Assembly (NCBI GenBank): GCA_016871255.1
Contig: VFZH01000012.1
Coordinates: forward strand, 1-45,539
DNA length: 45,539 nt
Origin: Acidimicrobiia bacterium
Lineage (GTDB): Bacteria; Acidobacteriota; Vicinamibacteria; Vicinamibacterales; UBA2999
Direction: 5' to 3'
The notes beneath the pieces are model-generated. The model was not told the origin of the DNA and searched no databases. It saw only the letters and a program-made list of their open reading frames with translations. Below are positions 3,786 to 45,538 of the stretch, in pieces. Within the stretch, counting starts at the first letter, position 1, and every line of letters starts with the position of its first letter. A program made the translations under genes and the position numbers.

Positions 3786-5300
3786 GTGCTCGCCAGCCTT
3801 CGGAGCGCCGCGCTCGTCGGCGTGGAAGCCCTGCCGGTCCAGGTGGAGGTGGACGTGTCGTTCGGGCTGCCCGGGTTCACGATGGTCGGGCTACCCGACG
3901 TGGCGGTTCGGGAGAGCCGGGACCGCGTGCGCGCGGCCATCCGCAACTCCGGGTTCGAATTCCCGCCCCATCGCATCACCGTCAACCTGGCCCCGGCCGA
4001 CGTGCCGAAGGCCGGCTCGTCGTACGATCTGCCGATCGCGCTGGCGCTGCTGGCCACGCAGGGCACGCTCGCGCACCGGGCGGTCGAGGACACGTTCGTG
4101 CTCGGCGAGCTGTCCCTGGACGGCGTCATCAACGCGATCCGTGGCGTCCTCCCGGTCGCCATCGCTGCCCGGCGGGCCGGCATTCGGAGGCTGCTCCTGC
4201 CTCCCGCCAACGCGTCGGAGGCCTCGGTCGTGGACGGCCTGGAGGTCTGCGTCGTTCGGTCGCTGACCGAAGCCGTGGCCGCCATCAACGATCCCGCGCA
4301 GGCCGTCCGTGTGTCGGCGGCGCCGGCCCCGGCGGCCAGGACGCCCGTGCCGGATGGGGACCTTGCCGACGTGCGGGGCCAGCTGCTGCCCAGGCGCGCC
4401 CTGGAGGTCGCGGCCGCCGGCGCGCACAACCTGCTGTTCATCGGCCCGCCCGGCGCCGGGAAGACGATTCTGGCCCGGCGGTTCGGCGGCATCCTGCCGC
4501 CGCTAACTTTCGACGAGGCGCTCGAGTGCACCGCGATCCACTCCGTGGCCGGCCTGCTGGCGCCCGGCGCCGGACTGCTCGCGTCGCGACCGTTCCGCGC
4601 GCCGCACCACACCGCCTCGAACGTGGCACTGGTCGGCGGCGGCGCCATCCCGCGCCCCGGCGAGATCAGTCTGGCGCACCGTGGGGTGCTGTTCCTGGAC
4701 GAGCTGCCGGAGTTCGACCGGCGTGTGCTGGAAGCGCTGCGCCAGCCGCTCGAGGAGGGACGGGTGACGATTGCCCGTGCCGCGCGAACGGTCTCGTTTC
4801 CCGCCGGTTTCACGCTGATCGCCGCCATGAACCCCTGCCCCTGCGGCTTCCTGGGAGACGAGCGGCGGACCTGTCGATGCACCCCGGTCCAGATCAGCCG
4901 CTACGGCGGCCGCCTGTCGGGACCGCTTCGGGACCGCATCGACCTGATCGTCGAGGTGCCGGCCGTGCCACCCGACCAGATCGCGGACGGCGCCGCCGGC
5001 GAAGCGTCCGCCCCAGTCCGGAGCCGAGTCAGCACCGCCCGGGCGCGCCAGGCCGCCAGGTCAGCAGACGCCGGCAGCTGGCTGAACGCCGAGTTGCGCG
5101 GTGAGGCACTCCGGCGGATATGTGCACCGGACCCCTCCGGACGGCGGTTGTTGCGGTCGGCCACCGAGCGACTGCGCCTCAGCGCACGAAGCTACTGCAA
5201 GGTCCTCAAGGTGGCCCGGACCATCGCCGATCTTGCCGGGGCCAGCCGCGTCGAAGCCGATCATGTCGCCGAAGCGCTCCAGTACCGCGCCCGTGAGTGA
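3786..5300 (+). CDS. comM: YifB/ComM family Mg-chelatase-like AAA+ ATPase
   Basis: This 504-residue protein has the three-part ComM layout. Residues 1 to about 165 form the Lon-like N-terminal fold (VDVSFGLPGFTMVGLPD, RESRDRVRAAI). An AAA+ module follows with Walker A FIGPPGAGKTILARR and Walker B GVLFLDELPEF, plus the family Cys cluster NPCPCGFLGDERRTCRC. The C-terminal Mg-chelatase helical domain ends in SARSYCKVLKVARTIADL. ComM is a hexameric helicase that drives branch migration during natural transformation. The GTG at 3786 is chosen because MLASLRSAALVGVEA aligns with the usual N-terminus. No clear ribosome site is visible. A ComEA-like gene elsewhere in the window (28580) is consistent with a DNA-uptake capability. 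Confidence 0.93.
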   Translation: MLASLRSAALVGVEALPVQVEVDVSFGLPGFTMVGLPDVAVRESRDRVRAAIRNSGFEFPPHRITVNLAPADVPKAGSSYDLPIALALLATQGTLAHRAVEDTFVLGELSLDGVINAIRGVLPVAIAARRAGIRRLLLPPANASEASVVDGLEVCVVRSLTEAVAAINDPAQAVRVSAAPAPAARTPVPDGDLADVRGQLLPRRALEVAAAGAHNLLFIGPPGAGKTILARRFGGILPPLTFDEALECTAIHSVAGLLAPGAGLLASRPFRAPHHTASNVALVGGGAIPRPGEISLAHRGVLFLDELPEFDRRVLEALRQPLEEGRVTIARAARTVSFPAGFTLIAAMNPCPCGFLGDERRTCRCTPVQISRYGGRLSGPLRDRIDLIVEVPAVPPDQIADGAAGEASAPVRSRVSTARARQAARSADAGSWLNAELRGEALRRICAPDPSGRRLLRSATERLRLSARSYCKVLKVARTIADLAGASRVEADHVAEALQYRARE

Positions 5301-33987: not shown

Positions 33988-34401
33988 TCAGTCGTCTGCG
34001 ACCGGCCCGCGCCGCACCTTGAGAGCGCTCCGCCGCTTCTTGGCGTCGAGCCGCTCTTCGCGCGCCGCAGCCGGGGGTCGGGTCGGACGCCGCGCACGCG
34101 GCTTTCGAGCGGCACGCCGCAGCAGATCCAGCAGCCGCTCGCGCGCCGCCTCGCGGTTCTGCTTCTGCGTGCGGTGCTCGTGGCAGTGCAGCACGAGCAC
34201 GCCGTCGCCGGTCATCCGCGTGCCCGCCAGCGCCGTCAACCGCCCTCTCACGTCGTCCGGCAACCCGGAGGCCGCGGCATCGAACCGCAGCTCCACAGCC
34301 GACGCCACCTTGTTGACGTTCTGCCCGCCCGGTCCGGGCGCCCGCACGAAGCGCTCCTCGATGTGGCGGTCGTCCACCGCGATGGTCCGCGTCACCTGCA
34401 T
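33988..34401 (-). CDS. arfB: Alternative ribosome-rescue factor / peptidyl-tRNA hydrolase ArfB
   Basis: The 137-residue protein has the GGQ motif of class I release factors in FVRAPGPGGQNVNKVASAVE, which hydrolyses peptidyl-tRNA on stalled ribosomes. Further family text is RLTALAGTRMTGDGVLVLHC, then HEHRTQKQNREAA. The tail, rich in Arg and Lys (RKPRARRPTRPP ... LDAKKRRSALKVRRG), is the part that enters the empty mRNA channel. Start MQVTRTIAVDDRHIEERFVR at 34401 is chosen; an open extension to 34563 has no family resemblance. The length matches YaeJ/ArfB. Confidence 0.93.
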   Translation of the reverse strand: MQVTRTIAVDDRHIEERFVRAPGPGGQNVNKVASAVELRFDAAASGLPDDVRGRLTALAGTRMTGDGVLVLHCHEHRTQKQNREAARERLLDLLRRAARKPRARRPTRPPAAAREERLDAKKRRSALKVRRGPVADD

Positions 34402-34489
34402 GGCCAGCGCTGATTCTCCTCCAGATCCGCGGCTGCCGTCCGTCCCGCGCTGTTCGCCCGGCGCGGCCACTTGCTGTACGCTGGCCCGG

Positions 34490-36790
34490 TTGGCGAGACT
34501 CCGGTCGCGACACGGCCTCCCCCGCCGGCTGGCATGCCTCCTGGCCCTGCTTGCCGGCGCCATCCTGCCGCAGGGTGCGTCGGCTCAGGGTGCCGTCCCG
34601 TCCGCCCCCCTGGATCCCGAGGTGCTGGCCCGGATCGACGGTGCGCCGCCCCCGGAGCTGCCCGACACCGGCGCCCGGGACGACCGGCGGCGCCTGACCA
34701 TCCGTGCAGTCAGGCTGACGGGACCGCTGCGCCTGGACGGGCAGCTCGACGAGGAGCTGTACGAAACCGTGAACCCGGTCTCGGACTTCATCCAGACCGA
34801 ACCGGCGGCCGGCCAGCCCGCCACGGAGCGCACGGACCTCTGGGTCTCGTTCGACGAGCAGCACTTCTACCTCAGCTTCCGCGTGTGGGAGAGCCGTCCC
34901 GACCGGATGATCGTCACCGAGCTCCGGCGGGACAGCTTCAACCTGATTCAGAACGAACACGTGGCGGTGCTCCTCGATCCGTTCTACTCGCGGCGCGACA
35001 GCTACCAGTTCATGGTCAACGCCAACGGCGGGCGGATCGACGGCCAGACCACGAACGACCTGCAGTTCAACGGCGACCTGAACCCGATCTGGGATCTGGA
35101 GGTGGGCGCGTTCGACGGCGGCTGGACGGCCGAAGTGGCCATCCCGTTCAAGTCGCTGCGCTACCCGCCGGGGCGCGACCAGGTGTGGGGCTTCACCGCC
35201 CGCAGGGTCAGCCGCTGGAAGAACGAGATCGCCTACACCTCGCCGGTGCCCGACGGCATCGGCCTCTTCGGCATCATGCGCGCGTCGGCGGCGGGCACGG
35301 TGGTGGGCGTGGAGGCGCCGGCGGCGGCGCTCGGCCTGGAGGTCAAGCCCTACGTCACGGCGGATCTCAACAGCGACCTCGCTGCCGCGCCGCGCGTGTC
35401 GAACGAGCTGGGCGCCCAGTTCGGCGTCGACGCGAAGTACGGCGTCACGCAGGGGCTGACGGCCGACCTGACCTGGAACACCGACTTCGCGCAGGTCGAG
35501 GCCGATCAGCAGCAGGTCAACCTGACACGTTTCAACCTGTTCTTCCCGGAGAAGCGCGAGTTCTTCCTGGAAAACGCCGGCACGTTCAGCTTCGGCGGAC
35601 GGGGCGGCGACGTGCCGACGCTGTTCCACAGCCGCCGGATCGGGCTGGAGTCCGGGCGCCTGGTGCCGATCCGGGGCGGCGGACGCCTCACGGGCCGGGC
35701 GGGCGGGTTCGAGATCGGCCTCCTGAACATCCACGCCGGCGACGAGGCCGTGTCGCGCTCCGAGCCCACGAACTTCAGCGTCGTCCGGGTGAAACGCGAC
35801 CTGATGCACCGCAGCTACGTCGGCGTGCTCGCCACCAGGCGATCGCGGGCGCCGGGCCGCCCCGCCGCGGGCGACACCCTGGGTGTCGACGGGGCCATCG
35901 GCATCGGCGACAACTTCACGGCCACGGGCTACTGGGCGCAGACCAGCGCCGCCGGCGCCTCGGGCGACGACACCAGCTACCGCGCGCAGCTGGACTACGA
36001 CGGCGACCGGTACGGCGCGCAGGTCGAGCGCCTGGTCGTCGGCCGCCGGTTCAGCCCCGACATGGGGTTCGTGCGGCGGCCCGACATGCACAAGGACTTC
36101 GCGAGCCTGCGGTTCAGCCCGCGCCCCCGCAACAGTGATTTCGTGCGCAAGTACTCGATGAGCGGGTCCTTCACGGCGATCGACAACGGAGCCGGGCGGC
36201 TCGAGACGCAGCAGATCAGCGGCGACTTCTCGATCGAGTTCCAGAACAGCGACGTGCTCAGCGTGAACGCGACCGACCAGTACGAGTTCCTGGCGCAGCC
36301 GTTCCGCATCGCGCGGAACGTGACCATTCCCGCCCGTGGTTACGACTTCCGCAGCGTGCAGGCGGGCTACACGTTCGGCCAGCAGCGACGGGTGTTCGGC
36401 GCGTTCAGCGCCGAGCGCGGGACCTTCTACGACGGGCACAACACCACGGTGAGCCTGCGCGCGGCCCGCGTCGTGGTGTCCAGGCAGCTGTACCTGGAGC
36501 CGAGCGTGTCGCTCAACTGGGTGGATCTCGAAGGCGGGTCGTTTGCGGCGCGGCTGGTGAGCTCACGCATCACCTACACGATTCACCCGCTGATGTTCGC
36601 CAGCGCGCTCCTGCAGTACAACTCCAGCGGGAACTCGCTCAGCAGCAACGTGCGCTTCCGGTGGGAATACAGCCCGGGGAGCGAGCTGTTCCTCGTATAC
36701 AACGAGGACCGCAACACGCTGGCGCCGCGGTTTCCGGCCCTCTCGAACCGGGCGTTCATCGTGAAGATCAACCGGCTCCTGCGCTTCTGA
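34490..36790 (+). CDS. DUF5916 outer-membrane protein with N-terminal CBM9-like domain
   Basis: The protein is about 766 residues if the TTG at 34490 is the start (MARLRSRHGLPRRLACLLAL, a signal peptide ending ASAQG). The CBM9-like sandwich spans about residues 70-260: LRLDGQLDEELYETVNPVSD, WVSFDEQHFYLSFRVWES, GWTAEVAIPFKSLRYPP. The rest is the DUF5916 beta barrel, with the hallmark FNLFFPEKREFFLENAGTFS and many alternating strands, ending SNRAFIVKINRLLRF as barrel proteins do. Its function is unknown; it is widespread in Acidobacteriota and Bacteroidota. An upstream in-frame ATG at 34400 overlaps arfB and is less likely. The stop abuts the convergent gene. Confidence 0.88.
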   Translation: MARLRSRHGLPRRLACLLALLAGAILPQGASAQGAVPSAPLDPEVLARIDGAPPPELPDTGARDDRRRLTIRAVRLTGPLRLDGQLDEELYETVNPVSDFIQTEPAAGQPATERTDLWVSFDEQHFYLSFRVWESRPDRMIVTELRRDSFNLIQNEHVAVLLDPFYSRRDSYQFMVNANGGRIDGQTTNDLQFNGDLNPIWDLEVGAFDGGWTAEVAIPFKSLRYPPGRDQVWGFTARRVSRWKNEIAYTSPVPDGIGLFGIMRASAAGTVVGVEAPAAALGLEVKPYVTADLNSDLAAAPRVSNELGAQFGVDAKYGVTQGLTADLTWNTDFAQVEADQQQVNLTRFNLFFPEKREFFLENAGTFSFGGRGGDVPTLFHSRRIGLESGRLVPIRGGGRLTGRAGGFEIGLLNIHAGDEAVSRSEPTNFSVVRVKRDLMHRSYVGVLATRRSRAPGRPAAGDTLGVDGAIGIGDNFTATGYWAQTSAAGASGDDTSYRAQLDYDGDRYGAQVERLVVGRRFSPDMGFVRRPDMHKDFASLRFSPRPRNSDFVRKYSMSGSFTAIDNGAGRLETQQISGDFSIEFQNSDVLSVNATDQYEFLAQPFRIARNVTIPARGYDFRSVQAGYTFGQQRRVFGAFSAERGTFYDGHNTTVSLRAARVVVSRQLYLEPSVSLNWVDLEGGSFAARLVSSRITYTIHPLMFASALLQYNSSGNSLSSNVRFRWEYSPGSELFLVYNEDRNTLAPRFPALSNRAFIVKINRLLRF

Positions 36791-37228
36791 TCACCGGGCC
36801 GGCAGGGCCAGGTACACCAGGTACCGGACGCTCTCCTGCTTCACAGACACCCGGAGAAACTCGCCGCCCCTGAGCAGGGCGACCGTCGTGCCCTCCGCCG
36901 CGTGCGCCGCCGACGCGCCCACCTGAGGCAGGTCGGAATCCTGCAGCACCTGGGCGACCTCGCGGCCCGCGACCTGCCCGTCGCGCACGAACTCCACCCA
37001 GACCTGCGCTTCGCGTGTCTGGCCGGGCAGCGGGTTCGGGTGCTCGCCGGTCAACCGGAGGTCGTAGGTGCCCGGCGGCAGCGCCGCGCCGTTGGCCCGC
37101 ACGGCCCTCGTGATCTCCACCGTCGCGAGCCGATCGCCCGGCCCGGCCTGCCCCTGCGCCGCGGCGCCGAACGTGGCCACGACCGCCACCATCGTCCCGA
37201 TGCCTGCCGCGCTGCCCGTGCTTCCCAT
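36791..37228 (-). CDS. Small exported protein of unknown function
   Basis: The protein is 145 residues from ATG 37228. A signal peptide (MGSTGSAAGIGTMVAVVATF, then GAAAQG) is followed by a compact beta-rich domain: LATVEITRAVRANGAALPPG, TYDLRLTGEHP, AQVWVEFVRDGQVAGREVA, ESVRYLVYLALPAR. It has no Cys and no catalytic motif. Similar stand-alone domains with the TYDLRL...REVAQVL pattern accompany secreted proteins in this phylum, but I cannot name the family. Its stop is immediately next to that of the DUF5916 gene, tail to tail. Confidence 0.75.
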   Translation of the reverse strand: MGSTGSAAGIGTMVAVVATFGAAAQGQAGPGDRLATVEITRAVRANGAALPPGTYDLRLTGEHPNPLPGQTREAQVWVEFVRDGQVAGREVAQVLQDSDLPQVGASAAHAAEGTTVALLRGGEFLRVSVKQESVRYLVYLALPAR

Positions 37229-37277
37229 GGCGCACCTCCGCGTGATCCTGGGGCTATCCTATCGTGGGAGGTCACCC

Positions 37278-37574
37278 ATGGCAGAGGCGTGGTGGGAATC
37301 GGTCAAGGTCGAGGGCGACGCTCTCGTCGAGAAGCTCAAGGCACTGCTCCACGAGGGGAACGTCCGGCGAGTGCGAATCCGGCACCAGGGGCGCACCATC
37401 GCCGAGTTCCCGGTCACGGCCGGTGTCATCGCCGTCGTCGTGGCGCCGATTGCGGCGGCGCTCGGCGTGATCCTGGCGCTGCTCAAGGACTGCGACATCG
37501 AGGTCGAGCGGGAGCGCAGTGACAGCGCCGAGGCCCCGGAGGCAACCACGGGTACGCCGTCGGACGAGCAGTGA
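37278..37574 (+). CDS. DUF4342 domain protein
   Basis: The protein is 98 residues from ATG 37278, with GGGAGG as ribosome site. It matches DUF4342: WWESVKVEGDALVEKLKALL, HEGNVRRVRIRHQGRTIAEF, then PVTAGVIAVVVAPIAAALGV and a second hydrophobic run ending in LLKDCDIEVER. The middle would form a hydrophobic hairpin at the membrane. The role is unknown. A TATCCT hexamer at 37255-37260 could be its -10. It is divergent from the small exported protein and 92 bases ahead of the YqaA-like gene. Confidence 0.85.
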   Translation: MAEAWWESVKVEGDALVEKLKALLHEGNVRRVRIRHQGRTIAEFPVTAGVIAVVVAPIAAALGVILALLKDCDIEVERERSDSAEAPEATTGTPSDEQ

Positions 37575-37666
37575 ACTTCGCCGGCGGGCTGGACCCGCCC
37601 ACATCGCGATAGACTGGGACGACTCGTGACGTCCGCGACACCTCCCCCCGCACGGCTTGCGTTCGC

Positions 37667-38284
37667 ATGAGCGCCTTCGGCTGGCTGGCCGCTCCGCGGC
37701 GCTGGCTCAGACAGGCGTACGACTGGACGCTGCACTGGGCCGAGACCCCCAACGCGCTCGCCGCGCTGCTCCTGATCGCGTTCGTGGAGTCGTCCGTCTT
37801 TCCGATTCCCCCGGACGTGCTGCTGATTGCCATCGTGGCGGCTCGGCGGGAGTGGTGGCTGCGCGCCGCGGCGCTCTGCACGGCCGGGTCCGTGCTCGGA
37901 GCCGCCCTCGGCTGGTTGATCGGCGCCGGCTTCATGGCCACCCTGGGCGAACCGATCGTGCGCTTCTACGGCGCCGAAGCCCAGTGGGACCGGGTCGTGG
38001 CGTTCTACACCGGTGTGTGGGGCGTCTGGTTCCTCGCGGCGGCGGCGTTCACGCCCATCCCGTTCAAGGTCGCCACGATCGCCGCCGGCGCCACCGCGAT
38101 GCCTTTCTGGCCGTTCCTCGGGGTCTCCCTGATCGGCCGCGCCTCCCGATTCTTCCTGGTCGCCTCGATCCTGTACGTATTCGGCGCGCCTGTCAGGCGG
38201 GTACTCGAGCGCCACTTCGACACCGCCGCGCTGTTGTTCCTGGTGCTGCTGATCGGCGGCTTCCTCGTCGTCGGCGCGCTCTGA
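37667..38284 (+). CDS. YqaA-type DedA/VTT-family membrane protein
   Basis: The 205-residue integral membrane protein has the VTT/DedA signatures: ALLLIAFVESSVFPIPPDVL (first re-entrant region with the E...PIPP motif), GSVLGAALGWLIGAGF (small-residue helix), AAAFTPIPFKVATIAAGATA and GVSLIGRASRFFLVASILYV. The conserved acidic residue and Arg-Arg/Ser positions are present. DedA relatives flip lipid carriers such as undecaprenyl phosphate or phospholipids; the YqaA subgroup has no settled substrate. Start MSAFGWLAAPRRWLRQAYDW fits the subgroup. Confidence 0.9.
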   Translation: MSAFGWLAAPRRWLRQAYDWTLHWAETPNALAALLLIAFVESSVFPIPPDVLLIAIVAARREWWLRAAALCTAGSVLGAALGWLIGAGFMATLGEPIVRFYGAEAQWDRVVAFYTGVWGVWFLAAAAFTPIPFKVATIAAGATAMPFWPFLGVSLIGRASRFFLVASILYVFGAPVRRVLERHFDTAALLFLVLLIGGFLVVGAL

Positions 38285-38544
38285 GCCAGCGGCGCGGGGC
38301 GCCCCACGACCGGGCCTGGACGAACGCGCGGGAACACGCTCACCTCCGCGGGCTTGTCCGTCGCCTTCCGCCACCTCACGCAGCCGACGGGCCGCTATCG
38401 CCGTCCCCCACTCCAGAGCGGCCGACCAGATGCATCACGCAGTGTCCACCGATCGCGTGCCCTCGTGATCTCCCGCGCCAGCAGCACCGATTCCTCTCCG
38501 AGGGTGACTCGTGCACCTGTGACGTTCACCGCGTCGCCCGTCTC

Positions 38545-40167
38545 TCAGTACGCGTCCGGAACCGGAGCGGGCGTGTCCGGTTTCGCTTCCCGCACCTCGG
38601 TCATGGTGGCTTCGGTCAGCAGCAGGACGCCGGCCACCGACACGGCGTTCTCGAGTGCCAGACGCACGACCTTGGTCGGATCGATGATGCCGGCGTCCAC
38701 CAGGCTCACATACTCCCCCCTGGCTGCGTCGAACCCGAAGCTATCCGATCCCGAGCGCATCTTCTCCACGACGACGCCGCCGTCCGCGCCCGAGTTCTCC
38801 GCGATCTGCCGGGTCGGCACCTCGAGGGCACGGCGGAGGATCAGCATCCCCGCCCGCTCGTCGCCGTCAACCAGCGGCGCCGCCGCCTCGACGGCCGGAA
38901 TCGCGCGCAGCAGCGCAAGGCCAGCGCCCGGCACCACCCCCTCCGCCACGGCAGCCCGCGTCGCGCTGATGGCATCGTCGAACGCCTCGCGCCGGCTCTT
39001 CATCTCCGCCTCCGACGGCGCCCCGACCCGGATCACGGCGACGCCGCCGGTCAGCTTCGCGAGGCGTTCTTCGAGCTTCTCCCGGTCGTACTCGGCGCTG
39101 GTCTCTTTGATCTGTGTTCGCAGCTCCTGGCACCGGCCGTCAATCAGCCGCTTGTCGCCCTTTCCGCCAACGATGGTCGTGTGTTCGCGGTCCACGACGA
39201 CCCGTGCGGCACGGCCCAGCTGCTCGAACGTCACGTTCTCCAGCCGGATGCCCAGTTCCTGAGCGATCAGCTGACCACCCGTCACAGTGGCGATGTCCTG
39301 CAGCATCGCCTTGCGCCGGTCACCGAAGCCAGGCGCCTTCACGGCCACGTTGGCGAAGGTTCCGCGGAGCCGGTTGACGACGAGCGTCGCGAGCGCCTCG
39401 CCTTCGACGTCCTCGGCGATGACAAGCAGCGGGACACCCTGCTTCGCGACCTGCTCGAGCAAGGGCAGGAGATCCTTGACGTTGCTGATCTTCCCTTCGT
39501 GGACGAGGATGAGCGGGTCATCGAGGACGGCTTCCATCTTCTCCGGATCCGTCACGAAGTACGCCGAGAGATACCCGCGATCGAACTGCAAGCCCTCGAC
39601 GACCTCCAGGGCGGTTTCGGTGCCCTTCGCCTCCTCGACCGTGACCGCTCCTTCGGCGCCAACCTGTTCGATCGCACGGGCCACCAGCTCGCCGGTGGCG
39701 GGATCGTTGTGCGCCGAGATCGTCGCCACCTGCCGCTTCTCGCGTTCGCTCTGGACCGGCCGGGACTGGGCCCGCAGCGCGTCGATGGCCAGTCGCGCAC
39801 CCCGATCGAGGCCGCGCTTGAGGTCGATGGCACTCGCGCCGGCCGCAATGTTGCGCATGCCCTCGGCCACGATGGCGTGCGCCAGGAGCGTCGCCGTCGT
39901 CGTGCCGTCGCCGACGACGTCTCCCGTGCTTTCCGCGGCTCCGCGGAGCATCTGGGCGCCCAGGTCCTCCTCCGGATCCTTCAGCGCGAACTCCTTCGCG
40001 ATCGTCACGCCGTCGTTGCAGACAACAGGCTTTCCCCATTTCCTCTCGATGAGCACGGAGCGCGACCTGGGACCCAGGGTGACCCGCACGGCCTCCGCGA
40101 GCGCCGCCGCTCCATGGAGGACCTTCTCGCGAGCTTGCGATCGAAACAGCAGGTGCTTGTATGCCAT
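38545..40167 (-). CDS. groEL: Divergent GroEL-type chaperonin, no GroES partner
   Basis: The protein is 540 residues from ATG 40167 (SD GGAGGAGG). Core GroEL motifs are intact: [40 protein letters not shown], the nucleotide site [32 protein letters not shown] and [20 protein letters not shown]. The C-terminus ends in TPAPVPDAY instead of the Gly-Gly-Met repeats. The N-terminal [19 protein letters not shown] also differs from the usual AAKDIKFG. No groES is adjacent, which suggests a secondary chaperonin copy. It lies downstream of a CNNM/CBS gene, a CBS protein gene and an Hsp20 gene on the same strand. Confidence 0.93.
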
Positions 40168-40714
40168 GTTCCTCCTCCATCTCGATAGCGGCAAAGCCAA
40201 TTTCGCGCCAGAGTCAACCCGGTCCGCCAGTCTGGATCGATCGTCCGGCCCCAGCGGATCGACGCCCCGCGATCAGGCACCGGGCACCGCATCGAAAGCG
40301 GACGACGAGTGCCGGCGCCTGGTAACCAGCCTCTGAGGATCTGGCGGCGTCGACCGGCACCTGATGTGCCACCGCACGACCTGACGGGTCGTGCGCCCGA
40401 CGACCTCCTCCGGATACCCGGCCAGTCCAGTGGCCGCGAACACGCCCAGCGCCAATCGATCGGGCCAGGGGCTCGCGGGCGAGATAGCCCAAACAGGAGG
40501 GCGGCTGCCAGCGCCCCGAGCGCGACCGCGTAGCGTGGCACGGCTTCCGGCAGACGGGCCGAACTCCACCAGGCGGCTGCTCCGCCGGCACGGGGCGTCG
40601 GGGGACCATCCACGGGCGGCTCGTCGCCGGGGCAACCCCGGCCGCATCGGGGTAGACCGGAATCAGCGGGTCGGACAGGACGCCCGCAGCGCCCGTCGCC
40701 TGGCGCACCTGCCG
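40168..40714. other. Intergenic region, possibly holding a degraded membrane-protein gene
   Basis: No intact gene is recognised in these 547 bases. On the minus strand two short hydrophobic stretches in different frames (RYAVALGALAAALLFGLS and RLALGVFAATGLAGYP, the latter followed by RTTRQVVRWHIRCR) could be remains of a small membrane protein. This is weak. The promoter of the chaperonin gene should also lie here. Confidence 0.25.
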
Positions 40715-41761
40715 TCATCCCGGCCGGATCGGACGGGATGGGCGACGGGTCGCCACCTCTCTGAGCTTGCCGCGCGCCGCCAGCAGCCGCTCGACGGCCT
40801 GATCGTCATCCTCGTCGTACAGGTCGCCGAGCACCTCTTCGAGGATGTCCTCCAGCGTGACGATGCCAGCCGGCGCGCCGTCTTCGGCGAGGACGATGCC
40901 CATGTGGCTCCTGCGTGTCTGCAGCAGCCGCAGGACGCCCAGGAGCGGGTCATCCGGACCGACGACGACGGCCGTCCTGACCAGCGTCCGCCAGTCGCGC
41001 TCCCCGGCCGCAAGGAAGGTGAGCAGCTCTTTGGTGTGCAGCAGGCCGATCACGCCCCCGCCGAGGAGCACCGGCAGCCGGGTGTGGCCGCACGTCAGGG
41101 CGATGTCCGCGAGCGGCTGCGCCGGCATGGAGGCGTCCGCCACGATGGTGTCTGTCCACGGCACCATGGCGTCGCGTACGCGCCGCGCCGCCAGGTCGAC
41201 CAGGTCGAGGGCGTAGAAGGGACGGGACGCCGTGCCCGGCGTCCCGTGGAGCGCGGCCCGCGGCACTCGCGCAACCAGCACCCTCGTCGCCCACGCCAGT
41301 CCGCCCACGATCGGAAGCAGCGCGCGGTCCAGCCACTGCAGCCCCCGCGCTCCGGCCAGGGCCAGGTGCTCCGGGTGCCGCAGCGCAAGCGCTTTCGGTA
41401 CGAGCTCGCCCAGGACGATGGTCACGACCATCAGCGGGAGCGCGACAACGGCGATTGCCAGCGCGGTCGCCAGCCCTTCGCCCAAGGCGAGGTGCTGCTG
41501 CAGCAGCGGTCTCACGGTCTCCTGCGCGCCTGCGCCGCCAACCGCGCCGGACAGCAGGCTCACGAGCGTGATGCCGACCTGGATCGCCGACAGCGTCCGC
41601 TCCGGCACCTCTCGCAGCCGCAGGTAGATCCGGGCACGTCCGTCGCCGCTGGTCGCGCGCGCCCGCATGTCGGCTCGCGACGCGGAGACGAACGCCATCT
41701 CAAGCGCCGCCAACGCGCCGTTGAGCGCGATGCAGGCCGCGAGGGCGATCAGGGCCGGCAT
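40715..41761 (-). CDS. CNNM/CBS-domain membrane protein (CorC/HlyC-type ion transporter family)
   Basis: The protein is 348 residues from ATG 41761 (MPALIALAACIALNGALAAL, then EMAFVSASRADMRA). The CNNM transmembrane domain covers about residues 1-185 (TLSAIQVGITLVSLLSGAVG, TIVLGELVPKALALRHPE). Two CBS domains follow (MVPWTDTIVADASMPAQPL and GIVLAEDGAPAGIVTLEDIL, then EEVLGDLYDE). The C-terminal CorC_HlyC transporter-associated domain is missing. The family handles Mg2+ or other cations. A GTG at 41785 would add eight residues. A hairpin at 41824-41854 separates it from the CBS protein gene. Confidence 0.88.
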   Translation of the reverse strand: MPALIALAACIALNGALAALEMAFVSASRADMRARATSGDGRARIYLRLREVPERTLSAIQVGITLVSLLSGAVGGAGAQETVRPLLQQHLALGEGLATALAIAVVALPLMVVTIVLGELVPKALALRHPEHLALAGARGLQWLDRALLPIVGGLAWATRVLVARVPRAALHGTPGTASRPFYALDLVDLAARRVRDAMVPWTDTIVADASMPAQPLADIALTCGHTRLPVLLGGGVIGLLHTKELLTFLAAGERDWRTLVRTAVVVGPDDPLLGVLRLLQTRRSHMGIVLAEDGAPAGIVTLEDILEEVLGDLYDEDDDQAVERLLAARGKLREVATRRPSRPIRPG

Positions 41762-41823
41762 GAACGTCACCAACGCCGACGCCACGGCACCCGTGCCGGA
41801 CGCGGATGCGCCGACGGGTGCAG

Positions 41824-41854
41824 CGTCAGGATCCCGTCCCCCGGGATCCTGACG
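41824..41854 (-). terminator. Perfect 13-bp hairpin after the CBS protein gene
   Basis: CGTCAGGATCCCG, loop TCCCC, CGGGATCCTGACG. On the minus strand it lies 19 bases after the stop of the CBS protein gene and about 60 bases before the CNNM gene. No U-run follows, so it may act as a processing or stabilising stem, or as a factor-assisted terminator for the Hsp20-CBS pair. Confidence 0.6.
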
Positions 41855-41873
41855 TCGCGATGTGCCGTTTCCG

Positions 41874-42335
41874 TCAGGCCGCCGTGACGTGCAGGGCCGG
41901 CTGGTGGTGGGCGCAGATCGCCTGCAGGACTCCCACGACCTCCGCCTCGCTCACGCCGGACCTCCCCGCCGCCAGCAGGATGTCGTTCATCGACACCATG
42001 CCGGTCACCGTGCCGCCGAAGCCTTCCACCGGCAGCCGCCGCACCCGATGCTGCCGCATCGTGGCCAGGACGGCGCGGATGTCGTCGTCGGGACCACAGC
42101 TCAGCGCCTGGCCGTGCACCACGTCGCCGACGGTGAGATCGGACGCGCGCTGGTTGCGCGTGGCCAGCGCGATGTACAGGTCGCGGTCGGTGACCACGCC
42201 AACGAGCTTTCCCTCCTCGTCCACCACCGGGAGGATGCCGCAATCGGCGTCCAGCATCAGGGCACCGGCCTCGGCCAGGTTCGTTGCTCGGGTACACGTG
42301 CGCGGCTCCGTGGTCATGACGCTCTTGACCTTCAT
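41874..42335 (-). CDS. CBS-domain pair protein
   Basis: The protein is 153 residues from ATG 42335, preceded by GGAGG. It consists of two CBS motifs in one Bateman module: MTTEPRTCTRATNLAEAGAL ... VTDRDLYIALATRN and VGDVVHGQALSCGPDDDIRA, then MRQHRVRRLPVEG ... VSMNDILLAAG. These modules usually bind adenine nucleotides and sense energy charge or ionic strength. No effector domain is attached. It starts 16 bases after the Hsp20 gene, so the two are probably one transcript. Confidence 0.93.
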   Translation of the reverse strand: MKVKSVMTTEPRTCTRATNLAEAGALMLDADCGILPVVDEEGKLVGVVTDRDLYIALATRNQRASDLTVGDVVHGQALSCGPDDDIRAVLATMRQHRVRRLPVEGFGGTVTGMVSMNDILLAAGRSGVSEAEVVGVLQAICAHHQPALHVTAA

Positions 42336-42351
42336 GGTTGCCTCCCTCCAG

Positions 42352-42879
42352 CTAGGCCGCTGCGCCCCTGGCCGGCCTCGCCGCGTCCTCGACCGGCACC
42401 GTGCGCGGCGCCGGCTTCGCTGCGACCGGCAGCGGCACACTCACCTCGAGGACGCCGTCGGCGAAGCTCGCCTTCACGTCCTCGATCTTCGCGCCCTCCG
42501 GCAGCGGCACGACGCGGTGAAAGCTGCCGTACGAACGCTCGCACCGGTACACGTTGTCCTTCTTCTCTTCGACTTCGCTCCTGCGCTCGCCCGAAATCGC
42601 CAGCTGGCCGTCGGTCACCTCCACCTTGACGTCTTCCTTCTTCAACCCAGGGAGATCGACCTTCGTGACGAGCCGGCCGTCGCGCTCGACCACGTCGATC
42701 TGCGGCGCCCACGCGGCAGCCTCGCCCGGATCGCCCCCCCGCAGGGAGGGCCAGCGGAACATCGTGCTAAACGGTCGCTCGAACACCGTGTCCAACTCGG
42801 ACGTCATCTGCCTGAGCAGTGCGAACGGATCGCGAGATGCCCCGCTCCGCTCCAGCCCGGCTTCCTTCTTCTCTGCCAT
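42352..42879 (-). CDS. Hsp20 / alpha-crystallin small heat-shock protein
   Basis: The protein is 175 residues from ATG 42879 with AGGAGG seven bases upstream. The N-terminal arm (DPFALLRQMTSELDTVFERP) leads into the alpha-crystallin domain: WAPQIDVVERDGRLVTKVDL, PGLKKEDVKVEVTDGQLAI, GERRSEVEEKKDNVYRCERS, YGSFHRVVPLPEGAKIEDVK, SFADGVLEVSVPLP. An Ala/Pro-rich tail follows; the I-x-I oligomerisation motif is not obvious. It holds unfolding proteins for refolding by ATP-dependent chaperones, consistent with the chaperonin gene downstream. It is the first gene of this stress cluster. Confidence 0.95.
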   Translation of the reverse strand: MAEKKEAGLERSGASRDPFALLRQMTSELDTVFERPFSTMFRWPSLRGGDPGEAAAWAPQIDVVERDGRLVTKVDLPGLKKEDVKVEVTDGQLAISGERRSEVEEKKDNVYRCERSYGSFHRVVPLPEGAKIEDVKASFADGVLEVSVPLPVAAKPAPRTVPVEDAARPARGAAA

Positions 42880-43092
42880 GACACTTCCTCCTGAGGCGAA
42901 ATCCCAGCAGTCGGAACCGTGAACCCTCACGGCAACCTTCATGCCAGCCTCCGGCCCGACCTCGGCGTGTTGCTGTAGCGAACTTCAGCTGAAGGACCGG
43001 ACATCCGCGGGCGGCCCACGGCACGAAAGTCCGCACCGGCACCGGACTATTCCGCGGCCGCCTGGTTCGACGTCACGCCGGTCGGTGTCAGC

Positions 43093-43383
43093 GTGGCCGG
43101 GGCGGGCTCCGACGTCATCAACAACGCGGCGGCGGCCGCCATGCTGTGCCCGGTCGCGATCAGCACGGCCGCCCCGCTCGGCGTCAGCCCTGATTCCTTC
43201 CTGATGGCAGTGGCCATTGGCGCATCGTGCGCCTTCCTGACGCCGATCGGCCACCGGAACGACACGCTGATCCTGAGCCCTGGCGGCTTTCGCTTCGGGG
43301 ACTACTGGCGCCTCGGGCTGTCGCGCCAACTCCTCGTCATCGCGGTCGGAGTCCCGCTCCTGCTCGTCGCGTGGCCGCTGTGA
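43093..43383 (+). pseudogene. C-terminal remnant of an SLC13-family (DASS) permease
   Basis: Ninety-six codons match only the last part of a divalent anion/Na+ symporter: NNAAAAAMLCPVAISTAAPL, GVSPDSFLMAVAIGASCAFL, TPIGHRNDTLILSPGGFRFG, DYWRLGLSRQLLVIAVGVPL, LLVAWPL. Full members have about 430-600 residues, so most of the gene is gone. The frame stays open a little further upstream (WFDVTPVGVSVAGAG) without resemblance. It ends about 60 bases from the tRNA fragment, and the loss may be connected to rearrangement at that site. Confidence 0.75.
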
Positions 43384-43443
43384 CCGCGCTTCGCCGCCAG
43401 GCGTGCGCTACCGCCTTCGTGCTTCCCGGGCGATCGTGTGGAT

Positions 43444-43489
43444 TGGAGGCGCCGCCCGGATTTGAACCGGGGATGGAGGTTTTGCAGAC
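43444..43489 (-). other. 3' half of a tRNA-Cys gene; probable attachment-site scar
   Basis: The minus strand reads from the anticodon loop CTGCAAA (GCA anticodon) through the T-arm CCCGG-TTCAAAT-CCGGG. It continues to the acceptor strand CGGCGCC, discriminator T and an encoded CCA. U73 with GCA identifies tRNA-Cys. The 5' half is absent: the sequence before the loop (CCTGT) does not pair with ACCTC beyond two bases, and no D-arm or GGCGCCG 5' end is found. Tyrosine integrases typically leave exactly this 3' fragment at one end of an integrated element. Confidence 0.75.
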
Positions 43490-43570
43490 AGGGCCAGAGA
43501 CGCTAAGTTGTTGACTCGTCTTGTTCGTTGGTCGGCCCTGATCCCTCGTTTTGCCCGGTGTTCGGGCGCG

Positions 43571-43591
43571 ATTGTTCCCAAATTGTTCCCA
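43571..43591. repeat. Direct repeat ATTGTTCCCA x2
   Basis: Two copies of ATTGTTCCCA at 43571-43580 and 43582-43591 are separated by one base (11-bp period). They lie about 80 bases from the tRNA fragment on the inner side. They could be arm-type recombinase sites or remains of the end of an integrase gene; in one minus-strand frame they read GNNLGT. Confidence 0.5.
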
Positions 43592-43631
43592 GGTTCGCGA
43601 GGCTGAAGTGCGGAGGTCTGCCGGAGGTTTC

Positions 43632-43967
43632 CTACTTCAATTCCAACACTGTCGCCTCGTTCTGTTGGTCGAACCGACGGATTTCGTCGTAACGCTGGCG
43701 AAGAAGGGTCGCGATCTCGCTCGTCGCGCAGTTGCCGCGCCGAACCCACACGAACTTCGGCGGCGCACCACGCAGGATGGCCAGTCTGTTGAAGTCCTCG
43801 TCCTTGCTGACAACCAGGCAGTTGTGAGTCCGGGCAAGATCCCACACGGCGGCGTCGCCGGCTCCGCCCTGGCCGAGCAATCGCACATGCAGGGAATCCG
43901 GGAAGATGTCGGCCAGCAGCTCGCAGAGCCGCTCCGAGAGCGGCTCATCGAACAGGAGCCGCGTCAT
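43632..43967 (-). CDS. DUF5615 PIN-like toxin of a type II toxin-antitoxin pair
   Basis: The 111-residue protein has the DUF5615/Mut7-C-like fold: MTRLLFDEPLSERLCELLAD (first acidic residue), DAAVWDLARTHNCLVVSKDE (the SKDEDF motif) and DFNRLAILRGAPPKFVWVRR, then GNCATSEIATLLRQR. In the canonical start LLFDENLSxRL the Asn is here Pro. These PIN-like proteins are predicted RNases. The ATG lies one base after the stop of the DUF433 gene, which confirms the pairing. Confidence 0.9.
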   Translation of the reverse strand: MTRLLFDEPLSERLCELLADIFPDSLHVRLLGQGGAGDAAVWDLARTHNCLVVSKDEDFNRLAILRGAPPKFVWVRRGNCATSEIATLLRQRYDEIRRFDQQNEATVLELK

Positions 43968-43968
43968 G

Positions 43969-44196
43969 TCACGCCGCGGGCGTGGTCAACGTGCGGCGCT
44001 CACGCTCGGCCGCGTAGGCGAGGCAGGCGCGAATGTCGTCGCGGGTGAGCTGCGGAAAATCGGCCAGAATCTGGTCCTCGGACATGCCTCCGGCCAGGTA
44101 CTCCAGCACATCGCCGACCGAGATCCGCGTGCCCTGGACACACGGCTTCCCGAATCGAACAGCCGGATCGGTGACGATGCGATCCAGTAAGGTCAT
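43969..44196 (-). CDS. DUF433 (VapB45-like) antitoxin
   Basis: The 75-residue protein is a complete DUF433 winged-helix domain: RIVTDPAVRFGKPCVQGTRI, SVGDVLEYLAGGMSEDQILA, DFPQLTRDDIRACLAYAAER. It should bind the operon promoter and neutralise the DUF5615 toxin encoded one base downstream. A second, broken DUF433 sequence lies on the other strand just upstream (44231), so the two face away from each other. Confidence 0.92.
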   Translation of the reverse strand: MTLLDRIVTDPAVRFGKPCVQGTRISVGDVLEYLAGGMSEDQILADFPQLTRDDIRACLAYAAERERRTLTTPAA

Positions 44197-44230
44197 TGGC
44201 GTAGTTTACCGGAGATCTTGCGAGTGACGC

Positions 44231-44398
44231 GATCGGATTGTCGCAGATCCTGACGTACTCGTCGGCAAGCCCGTGATCAAGGGCACGCGCATCAGCGTCG
44301 AGCTGGTGATGGACCTGTTGTCCGCCGGCTACACGACCGACCAGATCATCGAGCAGTACGATCACCTGACTCGCGAAGATATTCAGGTCCACGATCGA
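44231..44398 (+). pseudogene. Truncated second DUF433 gene
   Basis: On the plus strand DRIVADPDVLVGKPVIKGTR, ISVELVMDLLSAGYTTDQII and EQYDHLTREDIQV form a clear DUF433 domain, different from the intact copy on the minus strand. The start codon is missing (a TGA precedes DRIVAD), and the normal end (DIxAALAYA) is replaced after DIQV by sequence belonging to the truncated beta-barrel gene. Both ends are therefore lost. Confidence 0.75.
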
Positions 44399-45002
44399 GA
44401 TGGGCGCCGACGGGCAACACGAGATTGACGCGGCGGTACCCAAGTGCCACCGAGCTGTCGCTCAGGAACTCGAGCGCAGGCACAACGGCAAGGCCCGCGC
44501 GCCCATCACCGGACCTGGCCACACGGACCTTTGCGCTCAGATACGCGTCGCCCACACCGCGCGCCGTGTCAAAGCCGTCGGCGCTGAAAAAGTAGTACGG
44601 AACGCTGAGCCCGACTTGCACCCCGCGCGCCACGCCGGCCGTGACGTCGGCCAGCGAGACGTCCACGCCATGTGATGCGGCGGCCTGCCAGCGCGACGCA
44701 TAGAAGGACGCCCAGATGTCGCCCCGCGGCAACACGTCTGCGTTATCGACCCACGCGCCGAACAAGCGAGGCCGGAACGGCTCGGCGGGAGCGGGCTGGA
44801 TAAATGAGGGTGTGGGTAAGGTTTCGCCGCGGCCCACGCCAGGCGGCGGGCCAGACGTTGGCGGTGGACCGACGCCGGGAGGAGGACCGACGCCAGGGGG
44901 CGGATCTTGGGCTACCGGTGAGACGCCGACAACAAAGAAAAGGACCGCAACAACGGGCAGCGGTCCTCGTCGTACTCGTTGAATAGGGCGACGTCGGTCC
45001 AT
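44346..45002 (-). pseudogene. Outer-membrane beta-barrel (transporter-like) gene, 3' truncated
   Basis: From ATG 45002 a signal peptide (VVAVLFFVVGVSPVAQ) is followed by a Pro/Gly repeat linker. The barrel-like region then reads FGAWVDNADVLPRGDIWASF, AGVARGVQVGLSVPYYFFSA, RGVGDAYLSAKVRVARSGDG, SVALGYRRVNLVLPVGAHLD. It resembles the first half of MetA/phenol-type outer-membrane transporter proteins. Coding character stops near 44400, exactly where the truncated DUF433 fragment begins on the other strand. The last about 15 codons and the stop are foreign. The original protein was probably about 300 residues or more. Confidence 0.6.
44832..44903 (-). repeat. Four 18-bp repeats coding PPPGVG
   Basis: The linker after the signal peptide of the beta-barrel relic consists of PPPGVG, PPPGVG, PPPTSG, PPPGVG, coded by imperfect 18-bp units. 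Such a run is prone to slippage and can be expected to vary between strains. Confidence 0.7.
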
Positions 45003-45013
45003 CGGACCGTTTG

Positions 45014-45538
45014 TCAGTCCTCACGCACGTCGCGCATGTTTGCGCGGGCCTGCTCGTCGGCCCGATCGGCCGCGGCATCTGCGTCGGCATCCGGGCGCAA
45101 CGCCTGAATGGCGTCGCCGAGGCTCATCTGCTCTCCCACCATCTTGGCTTTGAGCTGGTCGAACGGGATGTCGAGATTGTTCGACACATGCACGGCAGCC
45201 ACGAATTGGCCAAGGTTCGGGAATCCCGCGCTCGCTGCCTGGAGATCAGTCCCGGGCAACAGGGTTTGGAGGCGGGCGGCAAGTTGTGGATTGTGGGCAA
45301 CCAGTTCGCTGGCTGTTGGAGGCCGTCGCTCACGCGCCCAGATGGGTACGTGTTCCGCGTTCTCTGCGGATCCGCGTCCCGCCGCCTCCGGCGGGAGCCC
45401 CTCACCGCGGCCTCGTCCGGCTGCCGCGGCCGGCAAGTCTCCCGCGCCCTCGCCTCGGCCGCGGCCAGCTGCTGCGGGCGGCAGATCTCCCGGACCCTCA
45501 CCCCGGCCGCGACCAGCCGTAGGTGCGGGAATTCTTCC
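45014..45538 (-). CDS. Unknown protein with RGRGEG repeats, 5' end outside window
   Basis: The frame is open to the right edge, so the start is missing. The visible 174 residues begin with Ala/Gly/Arg-rich repeats of about 16-17 residues (AAAGRGRGEGAGDLP type, about three copies plus a decayed one, nt 45390-45538). A compact helical domain follows: TASELVAHNPQLAARLQTLL, LQAASAGFPNLGQFVAAVHV, SNNLDIPFDQLKAKMVGEQM, LGDAIQALRPDADADAA. The C-terminal domain looks like a conserved family common in this phylum, but I cannot name it. The gene lies on the inner side of the tRNA scar. Confidence 0.65.
   Translation of the reverse strand, partial: GRIPAPTAGRGRGEGPGDLPPAAAGRGRGEGAGDLPAAAAGRGRGEGLPPEAAGRGSAENAEHVPIWARERRPPTASELVAHNPQLAARLQTLLPGTDLQAASAGFPNLGQFVAAVHVSNNLDIPFDQLKAKMVGEQMSLGDAIQALRPDADADAAADRADEQARANMRDVRED
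45390..45538 (-). repeat. Degenerate about 48-bp tandem repeats coding AAAGRGRGEG-GDLP
   Basis: At least three units, each coding GRGRGEG followed by a DLP or LPP segment, run to the window edge. The unit count outside the window is unknown. The very high GC content and repetition make this a likely place for assembly error or strain variation. Confidence 0.6.

Follow-up and report, generated by a model that had tools for sequence, protein, structure and literature searches.

A tRNA-Cys 3' fragment marks the probable distal end of a genomic island in a draft Acidobacteriota genome

The window analyzed here is the whole of contig C12 (45,539 bases), one of 243 contigs in a draft genome that totals 3.9 Mb and is 99.8% complete. 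Near its right end, at 43444-43489, lies a 46-base fragment of a tRNA-Cys gene that on the minus strand (43489 to 43444, coordinates exact) reads GTCTGCAAAACCTCCATCCCCGGTTCAAATCCGGGCGGCGCCTCCA. This sequence comprises the anticodon loop (GCA), the 3' anticodon stem, the T arm, the 3' acceptor strand, the U discriminator and an encoded CCA. It corresponds to nucleotides 29-74 of the 74-nt tRNA-Cys found in relatives and is identical to their intact genes at 46 of 46 positions. The first 28 nucleotides of the gene are absent and the bases preceding the fragment are unrelated: GGCCCT stands where tRNA-Cys has GCAGAG, and identity ends at about nucleotide 29. A 25-nt piece of the fragment occurs once in the window when up to three mismatches are allowed, against zero occurrences expected in shuffled sequences, and the length of the match is far above chance. 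ARAGORN predicted no tRNA in the window, and a search of Rfam returned nothing beyond a sub-threshold match. The sequence-only reading had described a truncated tRNA-Cys 3' half that runs from the anticodon arm to CCA and lacks a 5' half; this description is confirmed by the sequence, by the full identity to relatives and by a search for the 5' half, which was not found anywhere in the genome's own assembly (up to three mismatches).

To the left of the fragment, the window is native chromosomal flank from 3786 to 34395, collinear with G005, a genome of the same family that has one tRNA-Cys and in which no fragment was found. Window sequences at 3786, 9848 (secA), 12880 (guaB), 14857, 15336, 17152 (gcvP), 20404 (gcvT), 24293, 26262, 28580 and 30229 match G005 in the same order and orientation, as does arfB (33991-34395, minus strand), the last collinear gene before the fragment; the flank genes are presumably those named here, the names being ones that we assigned from their sequences. 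In G005 (contig C7), arfB (85293-85688, minus strand) is followed 650 bases later by an intact tRNA-Cys on the same strand (86338-86411), and then by yraN and cysS. The comparison with a relative lacking the element, which had been proposed from the sequence alone, thus finds an uninterrupted tRNA-Cys at the collinear place. Relative to arfB, the tRNA-Cys 3' half in the window has the same side and orientation as the G005 gene, but foreign DNA adjoins it. Lower coordinates are therefore chromosome and higher coordinates inserted DNA, the direction that had been predicted.

The distance from arfB to the fragment is about 9 kb in the window (34.4-43.4 kb) versus 0.65 kb in G005; the left flank thus departs from the native arrangement, which is a point against the insertion reading. 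This stretch (34396-43443) encodes a DUF5916-like outer-membrane protein, a DedA-like protein, groEL, CBS-domain proteins, Hsp20 and a permease remnant. The remnant (43108-43383) is 5'-truncated, keeps 91 C-terminal residues of an SLC13-type permease of about 591, and shares 77% identity with a longer relative in G040. We considered the permease as a guide to synteny and dropped it, as it is a truncated remnant and its relatives have no tRNA nearby. GC content is 62-69% to the right of the fragment versus 67-74% in most of the 40-42.7 kb region to its left.

Directly to the right of the fragment is a conserved sequence (43490-43592, minus strand) that recurs in seven further genomes of the class. 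We searched 193 genomes of the class with positions 43488-43600; counting the genome studied here, this end is present in nine of them, and in eight of those nine it abuts a tRNA-Cys fragment. Members of the element family are thus seen in eight genomes. When the ends are aligned, conservation extends from TGGGAACAA to the fragment, the alignment being clear from the TGGGAACAATTTGGGAACAAT repeat onwards, and sequences diverge abruptly on the inner side. Two of these genomes, G010 (taken as MELF01000029, Acidobacteria bacterium RIFCSPLOWO2_12_FULL_68_19) and G033 (taken as JAUSDY010000176), have the same target and the same junction as the window, and a ~100-nt end that is 84-88% identical to it. 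All named relatives are Acidobacteriota metagenome genomes. In both G010 and G033, the window-type end sits between the intact tRNA-Cys and the fragment, on the predicted side; with the intact gene on the inner side of the end, the direction of the element is fixed independently of G005. Two conserved tandem copies of ATTGTTCCCA (minus strand TGGGAACAAT) at 43571-43591 are candidate arm-type integrase sites, and a similar GGGAACAGTTGGGAACAAT repeat is found beside the intact tRNA-Cys at the other end of the G010 element. An inverted repeat, CAGGGCC (43489-43495) and GGCCCTG (43534-43540), flanks 38 nt next to the core (43489-43540 overall) and is mostly conserved in the family. A weak match to part of the end in another genome (L109:1501-1544, G129:C89), not beside a tRNA-Cys fragment, is possibly a relative with another target.

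The DNA inside the conserved end encodes a DUF5615 (PIN-like) protein (43632-43967, minus strand; Pfam PF18480, E=6e-33), presumably a toxin, and an adjacent DUF433 protein on the same strand (43969-44196; Pfam PF04255, E=5e-26), its probable antitoxin. The adjacency of the two genes on one strand suggests a probable type II toxin-antitoxin module. They are followed by a second, partial and broken DUF433 gene (44273-44428, plus strand; Pfam PF04255, E=1e-13, profile positions 14-50 of 56), a 218-aa open reading frame with no family assigned (44346-45002, minus strand), and an open reading frame with 48-bp repeats that runs off the contig end (45014-45538, minus strand). NCBIfam gave no matches for the small proteins. 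Within the last frame, a 48-bp tandem repeat of 2.5 copies (45399-45517) may be the reason that the assembly stops there. The sequence-only reading had placed a toxin-antitoxin pair, broken genes and a repeat protein in the element; all are found to the right of the fragment, the broken gene being the DUF433 copy, although conservation assigns only the first ~100 bases to the element, and the membership of the two last frames is predicted from their position.

The tRNA-Cys gene is occupied repeatedly in relatives. In most of 59 relatives, BLAST with the fragment region detected this 3' part of the gene (~90-100% identity over 41-61 nt), often as two copies per contig. Ten relative contigs carry an intact tRNA-Cys together with one or two fragments each, and all 11 fragments lie 1.3-16 kb downstream of the intact gene and share its orientation; identity to tRNA-Cys starts at the anticodon loop or within the 5' anticodon stem. 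In six genomes the interval from intact gene to fragment holds a tyrosine integrase or what is left of one; it is complete in G030 and G031, and partial or a short remnant in G015, G012, G006 and G010. G030 has a second integrase just past the fragment and is a tandem arrangement. No integrase was found among the larger reading frames of G033, which has the same end as the window, and some copies are therefore decayed. The end in the window very probably belongs to this family of integrase-driven islands.

From the fragment, the conserved end, the uninterrupted collinear relative and the intact-plus-fragment arrangement elsewhere, we consider it very probable that an integrative element (genomic island) was inserted by an integrase into tRNA-Cys at the anticodon loop and has its distal attachment end at 43444-43489. 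A tyrosine integrase would have inserted the element at this loop, the element's own copy of the tRNA 3' half would have restored the gene at one end, and the original 3' half would have been displaced to the other end, making the fragment the outer boundary of the element. The element would then run from 43490 to higher coordinates and past the contig end, with native chromosome at lower coordinates. We infer integrase action at this locus, an intact tRNA-Cys beyond 45539 and the extent of the element; the earlier suggestion that the fragment is a 3' end displaced by tRNA integration has held up mainly through comparison with relatives.

Past the fragment the contig continues for 2,050 bases, to 45539, and no other contig matches its final 300 bases. 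The 2 kb between the fragment and the contig end yielded no integrase. The minus-strand frame at 43408-43845 ('NNLGTI...') was tried as an integrase tail and rejected, since neither relative's integrase matches the window; its resemblance to such a tail is due to the GGGAACAAT repeats. The assembly contains two tyrosine recombinases, XerD-like on C4 and XerC-like on C2, and no island-type integrase. Its 41 tRNA genes include no tRNA-Cys; neither a yraN profile nor a galT query gave a match, and searching with DNA of the native locus recovered only the fragment and tRNA-Gly paralogues. Since tRNA-Cys is essential, its native locus most likely escaped assembly or binning. The missing tRNA-Cys and island-type integrase speak against an insertion here but do not refute it, as the native tRNA-Gly/tRNA-Cys/yraN neighbourhood appears to be absent from the assembly. 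Both features are present in relatives: those with the same end have a regenerated tRNA-Cys, and relatives at the same target have an integrase. ARAGORN also found no tRNA-Gly(GCC), tRNA-Ile(GAT), tRNA-Ala(TGC) or tRNA-Lys(CTT) in the draft, despite the estimated completeness of 99.8%.

A variant compatible with this explanation, to which we give a substantial but somewhat less than even chance, is that the element has largely decayed and lost its integrase, leaving the attachment end, the toxin-antitoxin pair and debris before native sequence resumes. Short decayed copies are known: the interval from intact gene to fragment is 1.3 kb in G010, where all that is left of the integrase is a C-terminal remnant at the end beside the complete tRNA-Cys, and 1.4-1.9 kb in G015 and G012. 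The broken DUF433 gene and the lack of an island integrase in the assembly point the same way, but no native sequence (yraN, tRNA-Gly) occurs in the 2 kb of right flank.

It is rather unlikely that the fragment separates the element on its right from an older one that would occupy ~34.4-43.4 kb, from arfB to the fragment. Such an array would account for the 9 kb that are absent between arfB and tRNA-Cys in G005, and tandem insertions at tRNA-Cys are found in G030, G026 and G038. However, the 9 kb yielded neither a further tRNA-Cys fragment nor an element end or integrase, and its composition is chromosomal; relatives of its DUF5916-like gene lie at other positions on the collinear G005 contig. 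The break falls in the anticodon arm, the site of bacterial group I introns in tRNA, but an intron or split tRNA with the 5' half further right is ruled out for practical purposes by the lack of any 5' half in window or assembly, the lack of a group I match in Rfam, and the complete tRNA-Cys that accompanies the fragment in relatives with the same adjoining sequence (G010 and G033).

Insertion into tRNA genes is a standard route for genomic islands, and the end described here is an ordinary example of an island boundary in a tRNA gene, its novelty being limited to that of a further member of its family. Our findings leave the understanding of island integration unchanged. In the Islander framework, a regenerated target at one end and a displaced fragment at the other mark an island; a 3' tDNA fragment is present in 3760 of 3919 islands, and sites centred on the anticodon form a major class (2083 of 3919; PMC4383910). 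The same orientation rule holds in all 11 of the relatives' fragments, and their identity start points match the anticodon-centred class (PMC4383910). The window differs from an Islander-type island in having the displaced end only, the integrase and regenerated tRNA-Cys being absent from the assembly. Our literature search found this general framework, and among the results listed none dealt with tRNA-Cys islands in this class. The junction provides an exact mobile-element boundary in a little-studied Acidobacteriota class known mostly from metagenomes, and its sequence can be used to find further elements.

Two features are mildly interesting: the tRNA-Cys hotspot of this class, and the variety of toxin-antitoxin genes next to the conserved end. 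Compared with the window, the tRNA-Cys islands of relatives carry different cargo beside the end in nearly every genome, and toxin-antitoxin-type genes that differ in this way lie directly inside the end (L102-L108 and window 43490-45200). Within the first 1-1.5 kb, other genomes encode HigBA-like, HicAB-like, UPF0175, Phd/ParE and addiction-module genes, or a DUF4926/DUF6883 pair with no role assigned. Among 29 frames from 11.6 kb of element ends, toxin-antitoxin families dominate the matches, whereas a control of 129 frames, taken from 70.5 kb surrounding ordinary tRNA genes in the genome of the window, gave two PIN domains and otherwise largely housekeeping families, among the 25 of 59 families listed. 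Toxin-antitoxin genes are well known on islands, and we regard the enrichment at the conserved ends as a lead. It may belong to the whole hotspot, because G010 and G033 have toxin- or antitoxin-like reading frames (judged by eye) outside the fragment as well. The set of modules (DUF5615/DUF433, HigBA, HicAB, the UPF0175 pair, Phd/ParE with the addiction-module genes, and DUF4926/DUF6883) invites the speculative reading, which we think improbable, that the ~100-nt end is a docking place for the exchange of addiction modules that hold the island in place.

The hotspot, a recurrent insertion site in this class, shows further variation. In G038:C45 (L087:2039-17835), a single intact tRNA-Cys has two tRNA-Cys fragments downstream of it, separated by ~1 kb, which suggests stacked insertions. 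In G026:C14 (L080:98-13140), the interval from fragment to intact tRNA-Cys holds a complete Wadjet defence system (JetA, JetB, JetC and JetD) together with an SNF2-type helicase, a defence island at the same site.
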